A DNA stretch of 41,275 nucleotides from assembly GCA_902793635.1 (NCBI GenBank), contig CADBEA010000019.1:1-41275 (forward strand), in the 5' to 3' direction. This document shows, piece after piece, positions 16,194 through 23,317 of this stretch. The notes under the pieces were generated by a model, which saw only the letters and a program-made list of their open reading frames with translations, was not told the DNA's origin and made no database searches. This DNA comes from an uncultured Erysipelotrichaceae bacterium. GTDB lineage: Bacteria; Bacillota_I; Bacilli_A; Erysipelotrichales; Erysipelotrichaceae. A program made the position numbers and the translations under genes. Within the stretch, counting starts at the first letter, position 1. The number at the start of each line of letters is the position of its first letter.

Positions 16194-19100
16194 ATGATCG
16201 AGAAGTATAATGCGTTTATCTCTTACCGTCACGTGGAAAGAGATATCAAAGTGGCAGAGGATATCCAGAATCAGCTGGAACATTTTAAGATACCAAAGGC
16301 GATCGCCGAAAAGACCGGTGTTCAGAAAATCGAACGCATTTTCCGTGACAAAAGCGAGCTGCCGATCACCAGCAACCTGACCGACGACATTCAAACCGCA
16401 CTGAAAAACTCGGATTTTCTGATCGTGATCTGTTCACCGGAAGTTCTTGAATCACTCTGGGTCAGACGGGAAATCGAACTGTTTCTGAAGACGCATCCTT
16501 ATGAAAGGATCCTGACGGTGCTGAGCGCCGGTGAACCGCAGACCGCGATTCCCGATCTGCTTCTGAAACGGCGCATCGAAACAGTGGATGAAAACGGCCG
16601 TCCGGTCGTCATTGAAGAACCGACCGAACCGCTTTCCTGTGATTACCGCCTGCCCTTGAAACAGGCCCGGAAAGTGGAACTGCCCAGACTTGCCGCCGCA
16701 TTGATCGGCTGCTCGTATGATGAACTGGTGCAGCGGGCGGAACAGTACCGGCTGAGAAGATGGCGCCTGATCGCCGGCTCGGTGGCGGCCGCTTCCGCCG
16801 TCGCTCTGTCATATCTGATCTGGAGCAACCGTCAGATTTCGCATAATCTGGAACAGTCACAGAAGAATATGTCGCTGTATCTGGCCGAAGAATCCGGCAC
16901 AGCTCTGGAAAATCAGGACCGGCTGCGGGCCGTCTGGCTGGCTCTGAAGGCTCTGCCTTCGGAAACGGAAAACAAGCCGGTCATCAGCGAAGCAGAATAC
17001 GCGCTGGCGGAAGCGACCCGTGTTTACAAGCTTCCGTCCGTGTTGGAATACACAGCCGTCCGGCTGTTTGAAACCGAATATGATATCCGTGATTTTCTGA
17101 TCAGTCCGGACCGGACGGTGATGACGGCTGTTGATCAGGAGGATAATCTGTATCTCTGGAAACTGCCGGAAGGGGAATTGATCCGTTCTCAGAAACTGCC
17201 GCAGTACACGTCTCTGTTTGACGGCGGTGAAGCGGGCTTTTATACATCGGCGAATCACAGTACCCAGCTGTTAAGCTGGCAGGATGGCAGCGTCATCTGG
17301 GAAAACGACGCTCCTTCCCACAGCCTGTCGCTGTATGTGCAGAAAGAAAGCGGTCTTTTGCTGAAGTGGACGGAGGAACAGATCAGCCTCGTCGGTGAAG
17401 ACGGAAAGACCGTCCGTACGATGGCGGTGCCGGAACTGGCCGCCGGCTTTCGTATGGAAACTGCCGCGCTGGATCCTTCCGGCACAAAGGCTTTGCTGGT
17501 ATACCGTAACAACAGTCAGTCGGCTGTCATGCTGGCGGATCTGGAAAGCGAAGCGACAAAGCTGCTGCGGGACGATCTGATCATTGCCGATCGGGCGGAG
17601 TTTCTGGATGACGGAACCGTGCTGATCTGTGAAATGGCAAATCCGCTGAATGAAATCTCGGAAGAGAGTTTCGATCAGTCATACTATCTCTATAACATGC
17701 ATGCGAATATCTGGCGGCTGGATCCGGAAAGCGGCGAAGTCATTTTCAAAACAGCCATTCCGTTCAGCCAGGAAGGATATTTCAGAAGCTATGAAAGAAT
17801 CGACTACCTTGACAGTGAAGGACAGACACAGGATGGTCTTTTGTGTAATCTTGCCACTGTGCAGGCAATCGTGAATCTGAGCGATGGCAGTGTTTTCAAG
17901 ATGTCCGAGTGGCCGGCAGTTGTCAAAAACACGATTTCCCGTGATAAGGAAACCATCTTCACACTGCTGTCCGACGGCAGTCTTGGCATCAATTCATTCA
18001 ACGACAATTATGTCAGCGGCATCAAAGCCTTTGTCCGCGATGCCGAAAAGGCAGTGATCTACGGCAAAGAAGAAGGCTCCCTGGCTTCCGTCATGGTCAT
18101 GCCGAAAGGACAGCCGTACATCATTCAGTATGTGCCGGCCGATTACCCGCCCGGCTATCAGCGGCTGGAAAACATTCAGACCAGAACGATCGAGAGCGCC
18201 ATTATGAGGGACGACCGGCTGGCCATGGAGTACAGGGATGATAGCCATGAGAGGCATATAACCGTCTTTGATATCCATACGGAACAGCCCGTGCTTGATT
18301 ATGAAGCGGAGATCGGTGAAGATGCCGCGTATCTGTTCAGCCGGGACGGCAGTATGTTCTATGTCGTTTCCGACGTGGATGACCATATCCGGATCGCGAA
18401 GATGTCACTGTCTGACGGCAGCCGCACGGACAGTTTCGTGATCGATCCGGATCTGATCCTGCAGGATTCGGCTTTCTCAATGAAGGACAGCCTGATCCGG
18501 TATGTCTGCTATGTGCATTCCGAGGATGGCAATGTCCTGAAAATGGGTGCATATGACTGTATGAAAGGTGAGGAACTTTCCGGCGCGGAGATCGATTCCG
18601 AAGGATTCCCCGATACCCTCATGATCCAGAACTGCGTTTTTTCGGAGGATGGCAAAAGCTGTCTGCTGGAAATCCGCAATTATGGCAAAGACACCCAGAA
18701 AAACGAACTCTATTATATGACGGCCGGACAGAAACCTTTCCTGCTGGACGCATCGGATGAACCGCACTATCCCGGTCTCTTCAATTCTTCCTCGACTGCC
18801 TTCGCGACGGTTTTTAACGGCGAGATCACCGTCTATGACATGAGCGGCCAGCCATCCGGCAACATATCCTTCAAGCCGGACAGCTATCTTTCGGCGGCTT
18901 ATCTGAACGACGAGCTGTATCTTTTGACCAATGAAGGAATCGTCTACCGGTATTCCGCGAAAAACGAACTGCTCATGAAGTACTCGGTGGGCATCTATAC
19001 CAATTCACTGTATGTTTCAAATGACCGCTACGAATGGCAGCAGGATGCCGGCAACATCTATCTGCAGGCCAACGGCATTCTCAGTGTGATCGATCCGCAG

Positions 19101-19286
19101 CAGTCATTTATGCGGGCATGTATCCAGCATGTCCTGGGTATCGCGCCAGCTCATTCCGCCGTGATCGTATCGGATACATCTTCCGGTGTCAGTTATGCTT
19201 ATCCCGGCATCATGCCGCTGTATACGACCGAAGAACTGATTCAGACCGGCCGGGAAATTGTCCGGGATTATGAGCCCAAGGAATGA
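16194..19286 (+). CDS. TIR domain - transmembrane - beta-propeller-like protein
   Basis: The 1030-residue protein begins with a TIR domain (residues 4 to about 130): YNAFISYRHVERD, then DFLIVICSPEVLESLWVRRE. W89 and E93 occupy the WxxxE position that includes the catalytic glutamate in NAD-cleaving TIRs. A single membrane span follows (about 191-210), preceded by basic RLRRWR. Next is a helical segment, ALENQDRLRAVWLALKALPSE, of the kind that links TIR or ATPase modules to WD40-like repeats. The remaining 750 or so residues are beta-rich, with repeated D-x-S/D-G turns and tryptophans (NLYLWKLPEGELI), probably one or two propellers. The likely role is an envelope-linked sensor with a TIR effector; defence is plausible but unproven. 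The start has AGAGGTG upstream. Confidence 0.85.
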   Translation: MIEKYNAFISYRHVERDIKVAEDIQNQLEHFKIPKAIAEKTGVQKIERIFRDKSELPITSNLTDDIQTALKNSDFLIVICSPEVLESLWVRREIELFLKTHPYERILTVLSAGEPQTAIPDLLLKRRIETVDENGRPVVIEEPTEPLSCDYRLPLKQARKVELPRLAAALIGCSYDELVQRAEQYRLRRWRLIAGSVAAASAVALSYLIWSNRQISHNLEQSQKNMSLYLAEESGTALENQDRLRAVWLALKALPSETENKPVISEAEYALAEATRVYKLPSVLEYTAVRLFETEYDIRDFLISPDRTVMTAVDQEDNLYLWKLPEGELIRSQKLPQYTSLFDGGEAGFYTSANHSTQLLSWQDGSVIWENDAPSHSLSLYVQKESGLLLKWTEEQISLVGEDGKTVRTMAVPELAAGFRMETAALDPSGTKALLVYRNNSQSAVMLADLESEATKLLRDDLIIADRAEFLDDGTVLICEMANPLNEISEESFDQSYYLYNMHANIWRLDPESGEVIFKTAIPFSQEGYFRSYERIDYLDSEGQTQDGLLCNLATVQAIVNLSDGSVFKMSEWPAVVKNTISRDKETIFTLLSDGSLGINSFNDNYVSGIKAFVRDAEKAVIYGKEEGSLASVMVMPKGQPYIIQYVPADYPPGYQRLENIQTRTIESAIMRDDRLAMEYRDDSHERHITVFDIHTEQPVLDYEAEIGEDAAYLFSRDGSMFYVVSDVDDHIRIAKMSLSDGSRTDSFVIDPDLILQDSAFSMKDSLIRYVCYVHSEDGNVLKMGAYDCMKGEELSGAEIDSEGFPDTLMIQNCVFSEDGKSCLLEIRNYGKDTQKNELYYMTAGQKPFLLDASDEPHYPGLFNSSSTAFATVFNGEITVYDMSGQPSGNISFKPDSYLSAAYLNDELYLLTNEGIVYRYSAKNELLMKYSVGIYTNSLYVSNDRYEWQQDAGNIYLQANGILSVIDPQQSFMRACIQHVLGIAPAHSAVIVSDTSSGVSYAYPGIMPLYTTEELIQTGREIVRDYEPKE

Positions 19287-19376
19287 AAAAAAGAATACAT
19301 CCGATTTATACTAACGCATCACTAATCCGGCATGGTAATATACTTGATGTAATCATTAGAAAGCAGAGATTATCCT

Positions 19377-19859
19377 ATGGCGAGACAGAAAGATTATTTT
19401 TCATTTGAATCGATCCGGGACAGGGAAGGGAATGTGGTATGTTATCACGTGACCATGATCGGCACGATTGAAGCGGACGGCGTTGCCCGCATGCGTACCG
19501 ATTTCGGTGCTGACGAGAATCAGCGGATGGCTTTCGGCCGTCTGACGGTCTGTGGTCTCGACAAAAAGATCAAAGTCTTTACCGATCAGCTGAACTGCCG
19601 CATCTATTATCATTCCTACAGCGAGGAAAACGGCGCGGTGGACATCATCAGTTTCTCGGCCAAAGACTGGCGGGCTGACGAAGTGTACGCACTGCAGGAA
19701 GGCGACCGCGTGCTGATCGAGGGAAGAGCCTATATCCGGCCGGTTTCCGAAAAATATCCCGACCGTCTGCCGGAAGTCAGCGTGACAATGACCGGCATGT
19801 TCCTGCTGGGTCATAAACGTTTCCACAGCATGAACAGCGGTCTGATTCCCCAGAAATAA
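19377..19859 (+). CDS. SSB-like OB-fold protein (tentative)
   Basis: The 160-residue protein resembles single-stranded DNA-binding proteins only in outline: an early strand VTMIGTIEADGVARM, a middle strand VDIISFSAKDW, then LQEGDRVLIEGRAYIRPV, close to the SSB signature LKKGDRVLVEGRL. It lacks the acidic SSB tail, ending SGLIPQK. A nucleic-acid role is inference. The ribosome binding site is weak, and no strong promoter is visible in the 90 bases upstream, although TIR-gene read-through is possible since I see no terminator between them. It is followed by its own terminator. Confidence 0.65.
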   Translation: MARQKDYFSFESIRDREGNVVCYHVTMIGTIEADGVARMRTDFGADENQRMAFGRLTVCGLDKKIKVFTDQLNCRIYYHSYSEENGAVDIISFSAKDWRADEVYALQEGDRVLIEGRAYIRPVSEKYPDRLPEVSVTMTGMFLLGHKRFHSMNSGLIPQK

Positions 19860-19860
19860 C

Positions 19861-19885
19861 GACAGCAGGAGCACTGCTGTCTTTT
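19861..19885 (+). terminator. Intrinsic terminator after the SSB-like gene
   Basis: GACAGCAG (19861-19868) pairs perfectly with CTGCTGTC (19874-19881), followed by TTTT. Confidence 0.85.
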
Positions 19886-19910
19886 CAATCTGCCTGCATG
19901 TTTATATAAT
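19882..19910 (+). promoter_or_regulatory. Promoter of the helical protein gene
   Basis: TTTTCA (19882-19887), a 17-base spacer and TATAAT (19905-19910); the -35 box overlaps the T-run of the preceding terminator. The leader to the GTG start is about 50 bases. Confidence 0.5.
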
Positions 19911-19968
19911 GAAATCAGTTTCGGAATATTGATACGATAATACGATCACGGTTCAAAGGAGGTACATC

Positions 19969-20526
19969 GTGGGACTGTTTGACAAACTGGTGAAGGAAGG
20001 GGCGAACCTTCTGAAAGAAGGCGAGAAGGTACTGAAAGAAGTCGCTTCCGACGAAAACAAAGAGAAGGCTGCGGAACTGTTTCAGTCTCTGAAGGAAACG
20101 ATCAGTGAAAAAGCGGAAGGCCTCAGCCAGGCAGTGGATGAATGGAAGGCAGAACAGCAGGCCAGGACGGAGGAGTCACAACAGCAGGCGTCTTATTATG
20201 AAGCGGACGCTTCCGACAGCCGCAGCTGCCGTGAGAAGATCCTCGCCTGCCTGAGTGAGGAATTCAGCAATTACACCGTCGAAGAAAACGTCTCACCGCG
20301 CCGGTTCGGCGGCGAAGGACGCTTCATGGATTATTCCATCGCTGTCTTTGACGGAACGGAAGTACGGCTGGTCATTATGCTGATCGGCAAGACGACGACT
20401 CAGCACCGTGAATACCGCTGGAGCAAAGAACTGGCGGAGAAGAACGGCTATCCGTTCATCAACTTCATCAATCATTATCCCAACACACCTGAATATATTT
20501 CCGACAGATTGCACAAATACCTGTAA
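19969..20526 (+). CDS. Uncharacterised protein with helical N-terminus
   Basis: The 185-residue protein starts with GTG at 19969, fixed by AAAGGAGG at 19955-19962. Residues 1-75 form a charged amphipathic helix or coiled coil rich in Lys, Glu and Gln (LVKEGANLLKEGEKVLKEV). The C-terminal 110 residues look like a compact alpha/beta domain: KILACLSEEFSNYTVEE, FMDYSIAVFDGTEVRLVIMLIG, then EKNGYPFINFINHYPNTPEYISDRL. The latter resembles a nuclease-like or metabolite-binding fold in outline, but I cannot name a family. It ends only about six bases before the structured RNA that precedes the reverse transcriptase, so it could be co-transcribed with that RNA. Confidence 0.75.
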   Translation: MGLFDKLVKEGANLLKEGEKVLKEVASDENKEKAAELFQSLKETISEKAEGLSQAVDEWKAEQQARTEESQQQASYYEADASDSRSCREKILACLSEEFSNYTVEENVSPRRFGGEGRFMDYSIAVFDGTEVRLVIMLIGKTTTQHREYRWSKELAEKNGYPFINFINHYPNTPEYISDRLHKYL

Positions 20527-20531
20527 TCTGT

Positions 20532-20676
20532 AAGAAAAAGAAAGAGAATTGCGGAGACGCACCTGCGGCAGCCGCAGCCTGTTCCTTCATATATGGTTTT
20601 GCAGGAACCGGAACAGGTACCGGCCGGTAACACAAGCACCGCTTGTTTCAAGGCGATTTCTCTTTCTTCTTTTTTT
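20532..20676 (+). ncRNA. Highly structured candidate ncRNA in front of the reverse transcriptase
   Basis: A long inverted repeat closes the element. AAGAAAGAGAA (20538-20548) pairs perfectly with TTCTCTTTCTT (20658-20668). It extends inward by four pairs past one bulged U (20549-20552 with 20653-20656) and outward by about five pairs past one mismatch. Inside are consecutive hairpins: CTGCGG-CAG-CCGCAG (20563-20577), CCTGTTCC with GGAACAGG (20578-20585/20610-20617), the palindrome TACCGGCCGGTA (20618-20629) and ACAAGC-ACC-GCTTGT (20632-20646). Seven T residues (20670-20676) follow the closing stem, so the whole element could also end as an intrinsic terminator. A weak promoter-like CCGACA-N17-TAATCT (20501-20529) would start transcription near 20536. 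The layout resembles retron msr-msd or other RT-associated RNAs; this is inference. Confidence 0.55.
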
Positions 20677-20679
20677 ACT

Positions 20680-21903
20680 ATGATGACGATCCTGAACAGA
20701 CTCCGTGACGCCGCGTGCTGGCAAGAATTCTATGAATATAAAAAAAGCCGGAACCAGCTGACTCAGAAAGAGCTGAAGAAGCTGGAAGAGTTCATCGTGC
20801 AGAAAAAATATCTTCCGGTGACGGAAGACCTTTCGTTCTCTTATCCGACGAAACACGCAATTGTCAAAATGGGCACTTCGCGCAGACGTATCGTCTACAG
20901 TTATCCGGAAGATGAAACATGGGTTCTGAAACTGCTGGCGTATCTGCTGTTCAGATATGACGGAAAACTGGCTGGCAATACGTATGCCTTCCGGCGCCGG
21001 ATGACAGCCGTTTCAGCCATCCGGGATATTCTGAAGATCCCGGATCTGAATGAGAGATATGTCCTGAAACTGGACATCCACGATTATTTCAATTCCATTG
21101 ATACGGAAATACTGATCGGTATCCTGGCGCGGGTCATCGATGACGACGAACCGCTGCTTTCTCTTTTATGCACGCTGCTGCGGCAGGATAGATGTTATGA
21201 GAACGGAAGTCTGATTGAAGAGAAAAGAGGCGCGATGGCCGGTGTGCCGCTGGCCGGCTTCTTCGCCAATTTCTATCTGGCGGATCTGGACGAATACTTC
21301 CTTGCAAAAGGCATTTCCTGGTTCCGTTATTCCGACGATATGATCCTGTTTCTGAAGAATGAAAAGGAACGGGAAGAATGTTTCGCGTATATCATGCGGT
21401 TTCTTGATGAAAGAAAACTGACCCTGAATCCGGACAAACTGAAATACAGTAATCCGGGTGAGGCATGGGAGTTCCTCGGTTTCCGCTATACCAGCGGAGT
21501 CATCGATCTTTCCCGCGGGGCCATCGATAAAATGAAAGGCCGCATCCGCCGCAAAGCCCATAAACTGTACCGCTGGAGAAAGAAGAATCATCAGGAATAT
21601 GACAAAGCAGCGAAAGCCATGATCCGCAGCTTCGATCACAAATTCTATGACTTCAGCGGCGACAACGAATACACCTGGACCAGATACTGTTTTCCGATCA
21701 TCAGCTGTCCGGACGGACTGCGTGAAATCGATACCTACATGGTCATGCATCTGCGGTATCTGTATTCCGGCCGCTACAGCAAGACCAACTATAAAATCAC
21801 CTACGAACATCTCAAACAGCTGGGATATACGCCGCTGGTGGCGGAGTATTACAACTGGCAGGAAGAAAACCGGATGCTCGACGAACAGAACCGGAAGAAA
21901 TGA
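20680..21903 (+). CDS. Stand-alone reverse transcriptase (RNA-directed DNA polymerase)
   Basis: The 407-residue protein has the ordered RT blocks: NTYAFRRRMTAVSAI (about 100-114), motif A LKLDIHDYFNSID (catalytic D132), motif B GVPLAGFFANFYLADLDEYF (189-208), motif C WFRYSDDMILF (D219, D220), and motifs D/E LTLNPDKLKYSNP and WEFLGFRY (263-270). About 130 helical residues follow, perhaps a thumb (RRKAHKLYRWRKK, WTRYCFPII, LKQLGYTPLVAEYY). There is no endonuclease domain, zinc finger or protease, and I do not see the retron VTG motif. The start at 20680 (or 20683) begins the region I expect for the family. Longer in-frame starts would run through the structured RNA. No Shine-Dalgarno sequence precedes it, only a T tract. 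It ends in a shared terminator region. Group II intron-like, retron-like or defence-type RT remain possible. Confidence 0.88.
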   Translation: MMTILNRLRDAACWQEFYEYKKSRNQLTQKELKKLEEFIVQKKYLPVTEDLSFSYPTKHAIVKMGTSRRRIVYSYPEDETWVLKLLAYLLFRYDGKLAGNTYAFRRRMTAVSAIRDILKIPDLNERYVLKLDIHDYFNSIDTEILIGILARVIDDDEPLLSLLCTLLRQDRCYENGSLIEEKRGAMAGVPLAGFFANFYLADLDEYFLAKGISWFRYSDDMILFLKNEKEREECFAYIMRFLDERKLTLNPDKLKYSNPGEAWEFLGFRYTSGVIDLSRGAIDKMKGRIRRKAHKLYRWRKKNHQEYDKAAKAMIRSFDHKFYDFSGDNEYTWTRYCFPIISCPDGLREIDTYMVMHLRYLYSGRYSKTNYKITYEHLKQLGYTPLVAEYYNWQEENRMLDEQNRKK

Positions 21904-21931
21904 AAACAGCCGCGGATCATTGCCGCGGCTG
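21903..21931 (-). terminator. Terminator of the M20 amidohydrolase gene
   Basis: CAGCCGCGG (21907-21915) pairs perfectly with CCGCGGCTG (21923-21931). On the minus strand it is followed by TTTTCA. The plus-strand side has only GCCGTGTTT, so RT transcripts may end here less efficiently. Confidence 0.8.
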
Positions 21932-21949
21932 CCGTGTTTCAGTATGAGG

Positions 21950-23317
21950 TTAATCTTCTTTCGGATAGGGCCAGGGGATGGAGTCGTCGATCGGGCATTC
22001 GTAGACTTCGCCGTTGAGCGAATTGCGGAATTCCTCTTTCGCCGCTTCCAGACGGGCCGGATCCTTCATCAGTTTATAGGTGCCGAGTGCCATGATCTTG
22101 GCCGCTCTTAACATGCCCTTCATGCCGATGGAGTGGCCGGAAGAAGCGGTCATCATCCAGCTGTGGCCGGAGGACAGGGATGCGGCCGTGCATTCGTTGA
22201 CCTGGAAACCCGGGCAGATGTATTCGACGTCACCGTAGTCGGTCGAGCCGAAGATGTTTCTTGTCTGCAGGGTCTGATCTTCATAATCGAGCGGCAGTGT
22301 CTTGCCAGGGACATAGGCGGCTGCCTTCTGGTTGATCTCGTCCGCGAAGCGCAGTTCTTCCTCGGTATAGGTATTGAGCGGAACTTCCTTTCTGGCTTCC
22401 TGGATGGCTTCGCCGATGACGTGGTTCTGCAGGGTCGGATACAGACCGCCGAGTCTTGTGATGACCGCTTTGGTGTCGGTCATGATGGCGGCGCCTTCCG
22501 CGCACTTGCAGACACGCTCATAGGCATCAACAGTTGCCTTGCGGCTTAAAGCACGGATGAAATATCTGGCCGCGGCATAGTCAGGCACGATATTCGGAGC
22601 CAGACCGCCGTCGGTGATCGTGTAATGCATGCGCACGTCGTCGGTGACGTGTTCCCGGAGGAATTCGACACCGATGTTCATTAACTGCAGGGCGTCCAGG
22701 GCACTGCGGCCGTTCTGCGGTTCGCCTGCCGCATGGGCGGTGCGGCCGTGGAATTCCACTTTCATGCCTTCCACACCGGTATGGCAGCCGAGGGTATCGC
22801 GGGATGCGGTAGCCGGATGCCAGGCAATCGTGAAGTCGCATTCTTTGAAGGCGCCCTGTTTTGCCATCAGGCCTTTGCCAAGCAGCTGCTCTTCAGCCGG
22901 GCAGCCGTAGAAGATCACGGTGCCGCTCAGGTTATCTTTGATCATCGCTTCCTTGAGGGCGATGCAGGCGCCAAGACATCCGGTGCCGAGCAGGTTATGG
23001 CCGCAGCCGTGACCGTCGCCGCCTTCGACGATGGGATTCTGATAACTGCAGACATTCTGGGAGAGACCCGGCAGGCAGTCATACTCGGCGCAGAAGCCGA
23101 CGACCGGACGGCCTTTGCCGAAGACGGCCCGGATACAGGTCAGCATGTCATAGGCGCCGACTTCGGTTTCAAATCCGTTGGCCCGCAGCACTTCAGCTGT
23201 CCATTCAACCGCTTTTGTTTCCTTCCAGCCCATTTCAGGATGGGCCCAGATGTTTTCGGCAAGACGGATCAATTCATCCGCGTGGCTGTCAACAACATTA
23301 CAGATCAATGTATTCAT
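21950..23317 (-). CDS. M20-family amidohydrolase, AbgB-like
   Basis: The 455-residue metal-dependent hydrolase resembles the B subunit of p-aminobenzoyl-glutamate hydrolase and related aminoacyl amidases. Visible motifs are VVGFCAEYDCLPG, the metal-binding GGDGHGCGHNLLG, YGCPAEE with the catalytic glutamate, AWHPATASR, FHGRTAHAAGEPQNGRSALDA in the dimerisation domain, and SGHSWMMTASSGHSIGMKGM near the end. ATG 23317 is chosen because AAAGGGAAA lies just upstream; an in-frame ATG at 23350 lies on the -10 box. It is transcribed divergently from argS and has its own terminator. Confidence 0.88.
   Translation of the reverse strand: MNTLICNVVDSHADELIRLAENIWAHPEMGWKETKAVEWTAEVLRANGFETEVGAYDMLTCIRAVFGKGRPVVGFCAEYDCLPGLSQNVCSYQNPIVEGGDGHGCGHNLLGTGCLGACIALKEAMIKDNLSGTVIFYGCPAEEQLLGKGLMAKQGAFKECDFTIAWHPATASRDTLGCHTGVEGMKVEFHGRTAHAAGEPQNGRSALDALQLMNIGVEFLREHVTDDVRMHYTITDGGLAPNIVPDYAAARYFIRALSRKATVDAYERVCKCAEGAAIMTDTKAVITRLGGLYPTLQNHVIGEAIQEARKEVPLNTYTEEELRFADEINQKAAAYVPGKTLPLDYEDQTLQTRNIFGSTDYGDVEYICPGFQVNECTAASLSSGHSWMMTASSGHSIGMKGMLRAAKIMALGTYKLMKDPARLEAAKEEFRNSLNGEVYECPIDDSIPWPYPKED

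Follow-up and report, generated by a model that had tools for sequence, protein, structure and literature searches.

Linkage of an RT-5 family RNA with a UG26-class reverse transcriptase and a conserved accessory gene in Erysipelotrichaceae

Organisation of the locus

The window analysed in this study is the whole of a 41,275-nucleotide stretch of contig CADBEA010000019.1 (assembly GCA_902793635.1), from an uncultured Erysipelotrichaceae bacterium of the gut. A gene for a small accessory protein, a structured RNA and a gene for a reverse transcriptase (RT) follow one another on its forward strand. The features of the cassette and its borders, numbered from the first letter of the window, are:

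19861-19881, + strand: hairpin resembling a terminator, at the end of the transcription unit upstream (pattern scan)
19882-19910, + strand: promoter-like site TTTTCA-17-TATAAT before the cassette (consensus match only; 4 such sites found, 2.5 expected)
19969-20526, + strand: accessory gene, 185 aa, immediately 5' of the RNA at every core locus (PADLOC RTasCOG2852)
20538-20668, + strand: companion ncRNA over its whole length of 131 nt, bounded by the two strands of the closing stem (126.7 bits with covariance model R1; covariation)
20680-21903, + strand: UG26 reverse transcriptase, 407 aa (PADLOC RT_UG26, E 2e-147; Pfam RVT_1; tree)
21905-21933, no strand assigned: inverted repeat resembling a terminator, 3' of the RT gene (pattern scan, reported for the - strand; the hairpin can be read from either strand)

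As promoter- and terminator-like patterns flank the accessory gene, the RNA and the RT, the three were framed as one unit and apparently form a single operon (19882-21933). The initial annotation of this DNA had described an RT-ncRNA pair; the pair was recovered here, and the conserved accessory gene, which is also part of the cassette, had been overlooked. Each core locus has the accessory in this fixed place next to the RNA; the remaining neighbours, among them the TIR protein, the M20 peptidase and ArgS, vary. In the window, a 1030-aa protein with an N-terminal TIR domain is encoded upstream of the cassette (16194-19286); it was rejected as a part of the system, being kept beside the cassette only in a 97% identical relative.

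A PADLOC search of 86 cassette-adjacent genes identified MADS, AbiO/Nhi, type I methyltransferase, Jet and SoFic proteins. Fewer matches were obtained with 86 control genes from distant stretches of the cassette-carrying contigs, a comparison that amounts to a rough tally, and these included several housekeeping-like proteins (GlgB), one mad3 and one CARF.

Classification of the reverse transcriptase

The open reading frame at 20680-21903 encodes 407 residues, in which the catalytic D132 and the YSDD motif are both present and the VTG motif of classical retrons is absent, all as read in the initial annotation. The PADLOC RT_UG26 profile matched the protein with 489 bits, covering 394 residues (E 2e-147), and on this match the RT is assigned to PADLOC class UG26. 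The runner-up DRT profiles, UG17 (= DRT10), UG27 and UG4, scored about 91-93.5 bits, and a generic RT profile outscored UG17. It is this ranking that suggests a placement among the Class 2 UG RTs, and the profile rankings do not favour Class 1.

In a tree of 24 proteins, made up of UG26, group II, DGR and unlabelled RTs and including no other DRT classes, the UG26 RTs formed a single clade with 100/100 support, separate from the group II and DGR RTs; one row of the tree (L162) is labelled DGR, but scores as group II. The phylogenetic placement proposed with the initial annotation thus puts the RT outside the group II clade. The UG26 clade also takes in three deep-branching RTs (L120, L156 and L157) upstream of which no RT-5-like RNA was found, and these may have a different RNA, or none. 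No DRT9 or DRT10 reference proteins were found among the sampled Bacilli and phylum genomes.

Identity and structure of the companion RNA

The structured RNA noticed upstream of the RT proved to be real, conserved and strongly covarying. Folding of the segment 20527-20680 gave -57.3 kcal/mol, against a mean of -38.2 for shuffled sequences (z = -4.7; 0 of 200 shuffles). A search of Rfam returned a full-length match to RF03026 ('RT-5') that exceeds the gathering threshold, by which the RNA is placed in the RT-5 family. The idea that the RT-ncRNA pair was undescribed consequently had to be given up, the RNA being catalogued as RF03026 and the RT as PADLOC RT_UG26. The Rfam model has 104 positions, lacks the closing stem and shows no pseudoknot in its printed structure line, whereas the RNA here measures 131 nt and has both; it extends beyond the RT-5 model to a closing stem, three hairpin units and a covarying pseudoknot. 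Directly 3' of the closing stem lies a U-rich tract, and the RT start follows 12 bases downstream. The elements of the RNA are:

20557-20660, + strand: match to Rfam RF03026, RT-5 RNA (68.4 bits; gathering threshold 45.7)
20538-20548, + strand: closing stem P1, 5' strand (pairing kept, sequence replaced in divergent lineages)
20551-20560, + strand: hairpin SL1 (covariation)
20562-20566, + strand: pseudoknot strand 1 (CCUGC), pairing with 20601-20605
20571-20624, + strand: P2 stem carrying hairpin P3, the latter formed by 20595-20598 with 20606-20609 (covariation)
20601-20605, + strand: pseudoknot strand 2 (GCAGG), within the P3 loop (covariation)
20632-20646, + strand: hairpin P4, candidate template-boundary element (covariation)
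20647-20656, + strand: unpaired segment UUCAAGGCGA (family UUCAAAGCNN), candidate template (conservation; position as in DRT10 and DRT3; PMC12632851, PMC13174585)
20658-20668, + strand: closing stem P1, 3' strand (covariation)

Covariation among homologues, the check put forward in the initial annotation, is strong. In an alignment of 27 homologues, 95.9% of the cells were paired, against at most 46% when the partners were slid, and two-sided changes occurred in 25 of the 43 pairs, a level reached by none of 500 shuffles. The pseudoknot, which in the family comprises 6 bp between GCCUGC and the P3 loop, was paired in 99.4% of cases in the same alignment, with two-sided changes in four of its six family pairs. 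Adding three divergent lineages, in an alignment that leans towards the model structure, raised the two-sided changes to 31 of 37 pairs, including 8 of the 11 pairs of P1. Unconstrained folding of the divergent RNAs kept the closing stem with quite different sequences (for example AGUAAGCGGAA/UUCCGCUUACU and GUAAAGGAGA/UCUCCUUUAC), and R1, a covariance model spanning all 131 nt that scores 126.7 bits at 20538-20668, recovers divergent relatives.

The 11 perfect pairs of the closing stem described at the outset were found again (20538-20548 with 20658-20668); the outer extension of this stem past a mismatch and a bulge is not conserved among relatives. The four hairpins originally drawn in series reduce to the conserved units SL1, P2/P3 and P4, and a hairpin CUGCGGCAGCCGCAG at 20563-20577 competes with the pseudoknot.

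A candidate template segment

The eight unpaired bases 3' of P4 (UUCAAAGC) are 98% conserved, compared with 77% in the other unpaired columns, and constitute the most conserved unpaired block of the RNA. By analogy with related systems, we infer that the conserved UUCAAAGCNN between P4 and the closing stem serves as a template, and it is plausible that the RT-RNA pair makes a short cDNA, as had been surmised earlier. An A-B-A' pattern, UUC-N8-UUC, can be seen in most lineages, with its second half falling inside the paired closing stem; it occurs no more often than in shuffled sequences (p about 0.8) and was dropped as evidence for a template repeat because composition alone accounts for it.

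Distribution and linkage of the RNA and the RT

Comparison of two lists, one for the RT-5 RNA and one for the UG26 RT, gave the identical 35 of 244 family genomes, a one-to-one linkage in which about 14% of the family genomes carry the cassette. In nearly all of these the RNA sits directly upstream of the RT and ends a few bases before its start. The closest named relative among the 244 genomes is a Solobacterium MAG from goat ileum. Sampling of the phylum showed UG26 to be rare (2 of 392 genomes), and searches of phages, plasmids and viral contigs revealed no close relatives and no phage-borne copies.

Two loci depart from the usual layout. In one genome (G022), an RT-5-like match of 42 bits, below the gathering threshold, is located 12 kb from the UG26 RT (L101:16334-16434, - strand), and a separate terminator-like hairpin comes after it. 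In L016 the ncRNA is separated from the RT start by a strong hairpin, rich in GC and carrying a T-run (CCGUCCGGCAG...CUGCCGGACGG, upstream of 1501), which could be taken for a terminator of the RNA itself. These separate terminator-like hairpins, together with the 12-kb distance in G022, suggest that the RNA can act in trans. A TnpB/Cas12f-like gene (L101:14285-15649) was also observed just beyond the distant RT-5-like RNA.

The accessory protein

PADLOC-DB 2.0 (2023) lists UG26 RTs with the RT-associated protein RTasCOG2852, and both the RT and the accessory protein here are members; RTasCOG2852 was matched by 21 of the 23 accessory homologues. In a single-sequence model of the accessory (pLDDT 67), the N-terminal part is long and helical and is followed by a domain of alpha-beta-beta-beta-alpha-beta-alpha topology, and the top matches of this C-terminal domain were restriction-enzyme-like folds at a Z of about 7, which is below the decisive level. 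On this model the protein probably has a PD-(D/E)XK-like fold and a helical N-terminus, without a recognisable catalytic triad. The catalytic D...(D/E)xK is not conserved among the accessory homologues, in which D121 alternates with N, Ile occupies the (D/E) position and K141 alone is invariant.

At divergent loci the accessory is reduced to a C-terminal match (L100), or none was found, and in one genome (G531, L110:4991-6433) the usual accessory gives way to an AbiO/Nhi defence gene, which immediately precedes the ncRNA and the UG26 RT. The helical N-terminal part is tandemly repeated in the accessory genes of L093, L094 and L117, in units like EVTSEENKEKASAFLNSLKETV, and these tandem units account for the differences in accessory length between species.

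Comparison with characterised UG reverse transcriptases

The searchable literature yielded no mechanism or ncRNA for UG26, which is named only in a viral survey (PMC10504277). In the Class 2 UG RTs DRT2, DRT3a, DRT9 and DRT10, a cognate ncRNA is bound and part of it is copied repetitively, namely a gene-encoding loop in DRT2, poly-U in DRT9, ACACAC in DRT3a and an A-B-A' segment after the last stem-loop in DRT10; the template of DRT3, DRT9 and DRT10 lies in a loop comparable to that of the UG26 RNA (PMC12632851, PMC12483538, PMC13174585).

The DRT10 RNA has 137 nt, with a large central stem, smaller stem-loops and a template after the last of them (PMC12632851), and DRT10 resembles the present cassette both in this layout and template site and in encoding an accessory and an ncRNA together with the RT. 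However, the accessory of DRT10 is a SLATT protein, whereas that of UG26 is a probable nuclease-fold protein; the ncRNA is found upstream of the SLATT gene in DRT10 and downstream of the accessory gene here; the template loop is poorly conserved in DRT10, in contrast to the eight nearly invariant bases of the present RNA; and A-B-A' is a feature of DRT10, while UUC-N8-UUC remains at shuffle level. DRT9 and DRT3a likewise combine an RT and a cognate ncRNA with a short conserved template in a loop (a candidate template here), and the DRT9 RNA also lies immediately upstream of its RT (PMC12483538, PMC13174585). Their templates are poly-U and ACACAC, respectively, as against the candidate UUCAAAGCNN, and the DRT9 RNA comprises 188 nt and six stem-loops (PMC12489045), compared with 131 nt and three hairpin units.

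Proposed mechanism and alternatives

We consider it probable that the cassette is a three-part defence-type system of class UG26, composed of the accessory protein, an RT-5 RNA serving as scaffold and template, and the RT, with a repetitive cDNA as product and the accessory as effector or regulator. The RT would bind the RNA, whose closing stem, SL1, pseudoknotted P2/P3 and P4 would together make a scaffold with several branches. The conserved UUCAAAGCNN, the unpaired stretch that joins P4 to the closing stem, would be positioned at the RT active site and copied, probably repeatedly, into single-stranded DNA of short repeats. Such a short repetitive cDNA is predicted because the RNA layout and the position of the conserved loop are comparable to those of Class 2 DRTs. 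DNA synthesis would probably start on a protein side chain, for which no residue is put forward because the single-sequence AlphaFold model of the RT was unusable (pLDDT 38). The accessory, with its nuclease fold and possible membrane association, would then sense this DNA or its build-up on infection, or act on it, and so stop growth or the phage. A bolder version of this mechanism, which we hold tentatively and with some doubt, sees UG26 as a further telomerase-like bacterial repeat synthesiser, having a pseudoknot RNA, a short template flanked by a boundary hairpin, protein-primed tandem repeats of about 11 nt (at this locus like TCGCCTTGAAA) and a nuclease-fold effector, not SLATT.

An unlikely but serious alternative is that the RNA is a structural or regulatory partner, or a cis-acting leader or attenuator, and not a template, the RT making untemplated DNA like Class 1 DRTs. 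Class 1 UG RTs are known to make DNA without a template from a protein primer (PMC12632851), the repeat pattern found here does not stand out from shuffles (UUC-N8-UUC, p about 0.8), and the U-rich tract 3' of the closing stem, 12 bases ahead of the RT start, would be in keeping with such a leader. However, the block of eight bases after P4, the most conserved unpaired part of the RNA, fits a template rather than a switch, the profile rankings of the RT do not favour Class 1, and both the location of the RNA 12 kb from the RT in G022 and the terminator-like hairpin between RNA and RT in L016 argue against a role in cis.

We find it improbable that the RT-RNA cassette has a housekeeping or mobile-element role, not one in defence, even with its frequency of about 14% in the family, its widely varying neighbours and the lack of phage or viral-contig relatives in the searches. 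Its presence is patchy, its sites are varied and defence genes lie nearby, and it belongs to a class whose DRT1-10 members are antiviral (PMC12632851, PMC13213688).

A retron, too, would have a structured RNA framed by an inverted repeat just ahead of its RT, the paired ends being a1/a2 and the RNA an msr-msd copied into branched msDNA. This is very improbable, given that the Rfam search of the window gave no retron family, that the retron RT model scored 51.6 bits against a cut-off of 235, that VTG is absent, and that the RNA of 131 nt, with three hairpin units inside one closing stem, has no long copied arm like an msd. The distant similarity to group II RTs (TIGR04416, 107.6 bits) falls below the cut-off of 300, and with the UG26 clade separate at 100/100, no intron RNA in the window by Rfam search and no TR/VR-like repeat pair within 19000-23000, a group II intron RT with its ribozyme elsewhere, or a DGR RT, is hardly credible. 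The initial view that the pair is neither a classical retron nor a group II intron is therefore upheld by the model scores, the absence of VTG and the tree.

Conclusion

The cassette, which combines a small, probably nuclease-fold protein, a folded RNA of 131 nt and an RT, most likely acts against viruses by copying part of the RNA into DNA. For several Class 2 UG RTs, the search for an RNA led to an unusual, repetitive DNA by which the cell is defended, and one of these enzymes gave a clue to how telomerase arose (PMC12632851). RT-5 and UG26 had each been catalogued already, and the combined system is apparently uncharacterised. This study ties the catalogued RNA to the catalogued RT and supplies the full extent of the RNA, its structure and the predicted site of the template. 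UG26 stands as a class apart, with a different accessory protein and a conserved RNA of its own that contains a pseudoknot.
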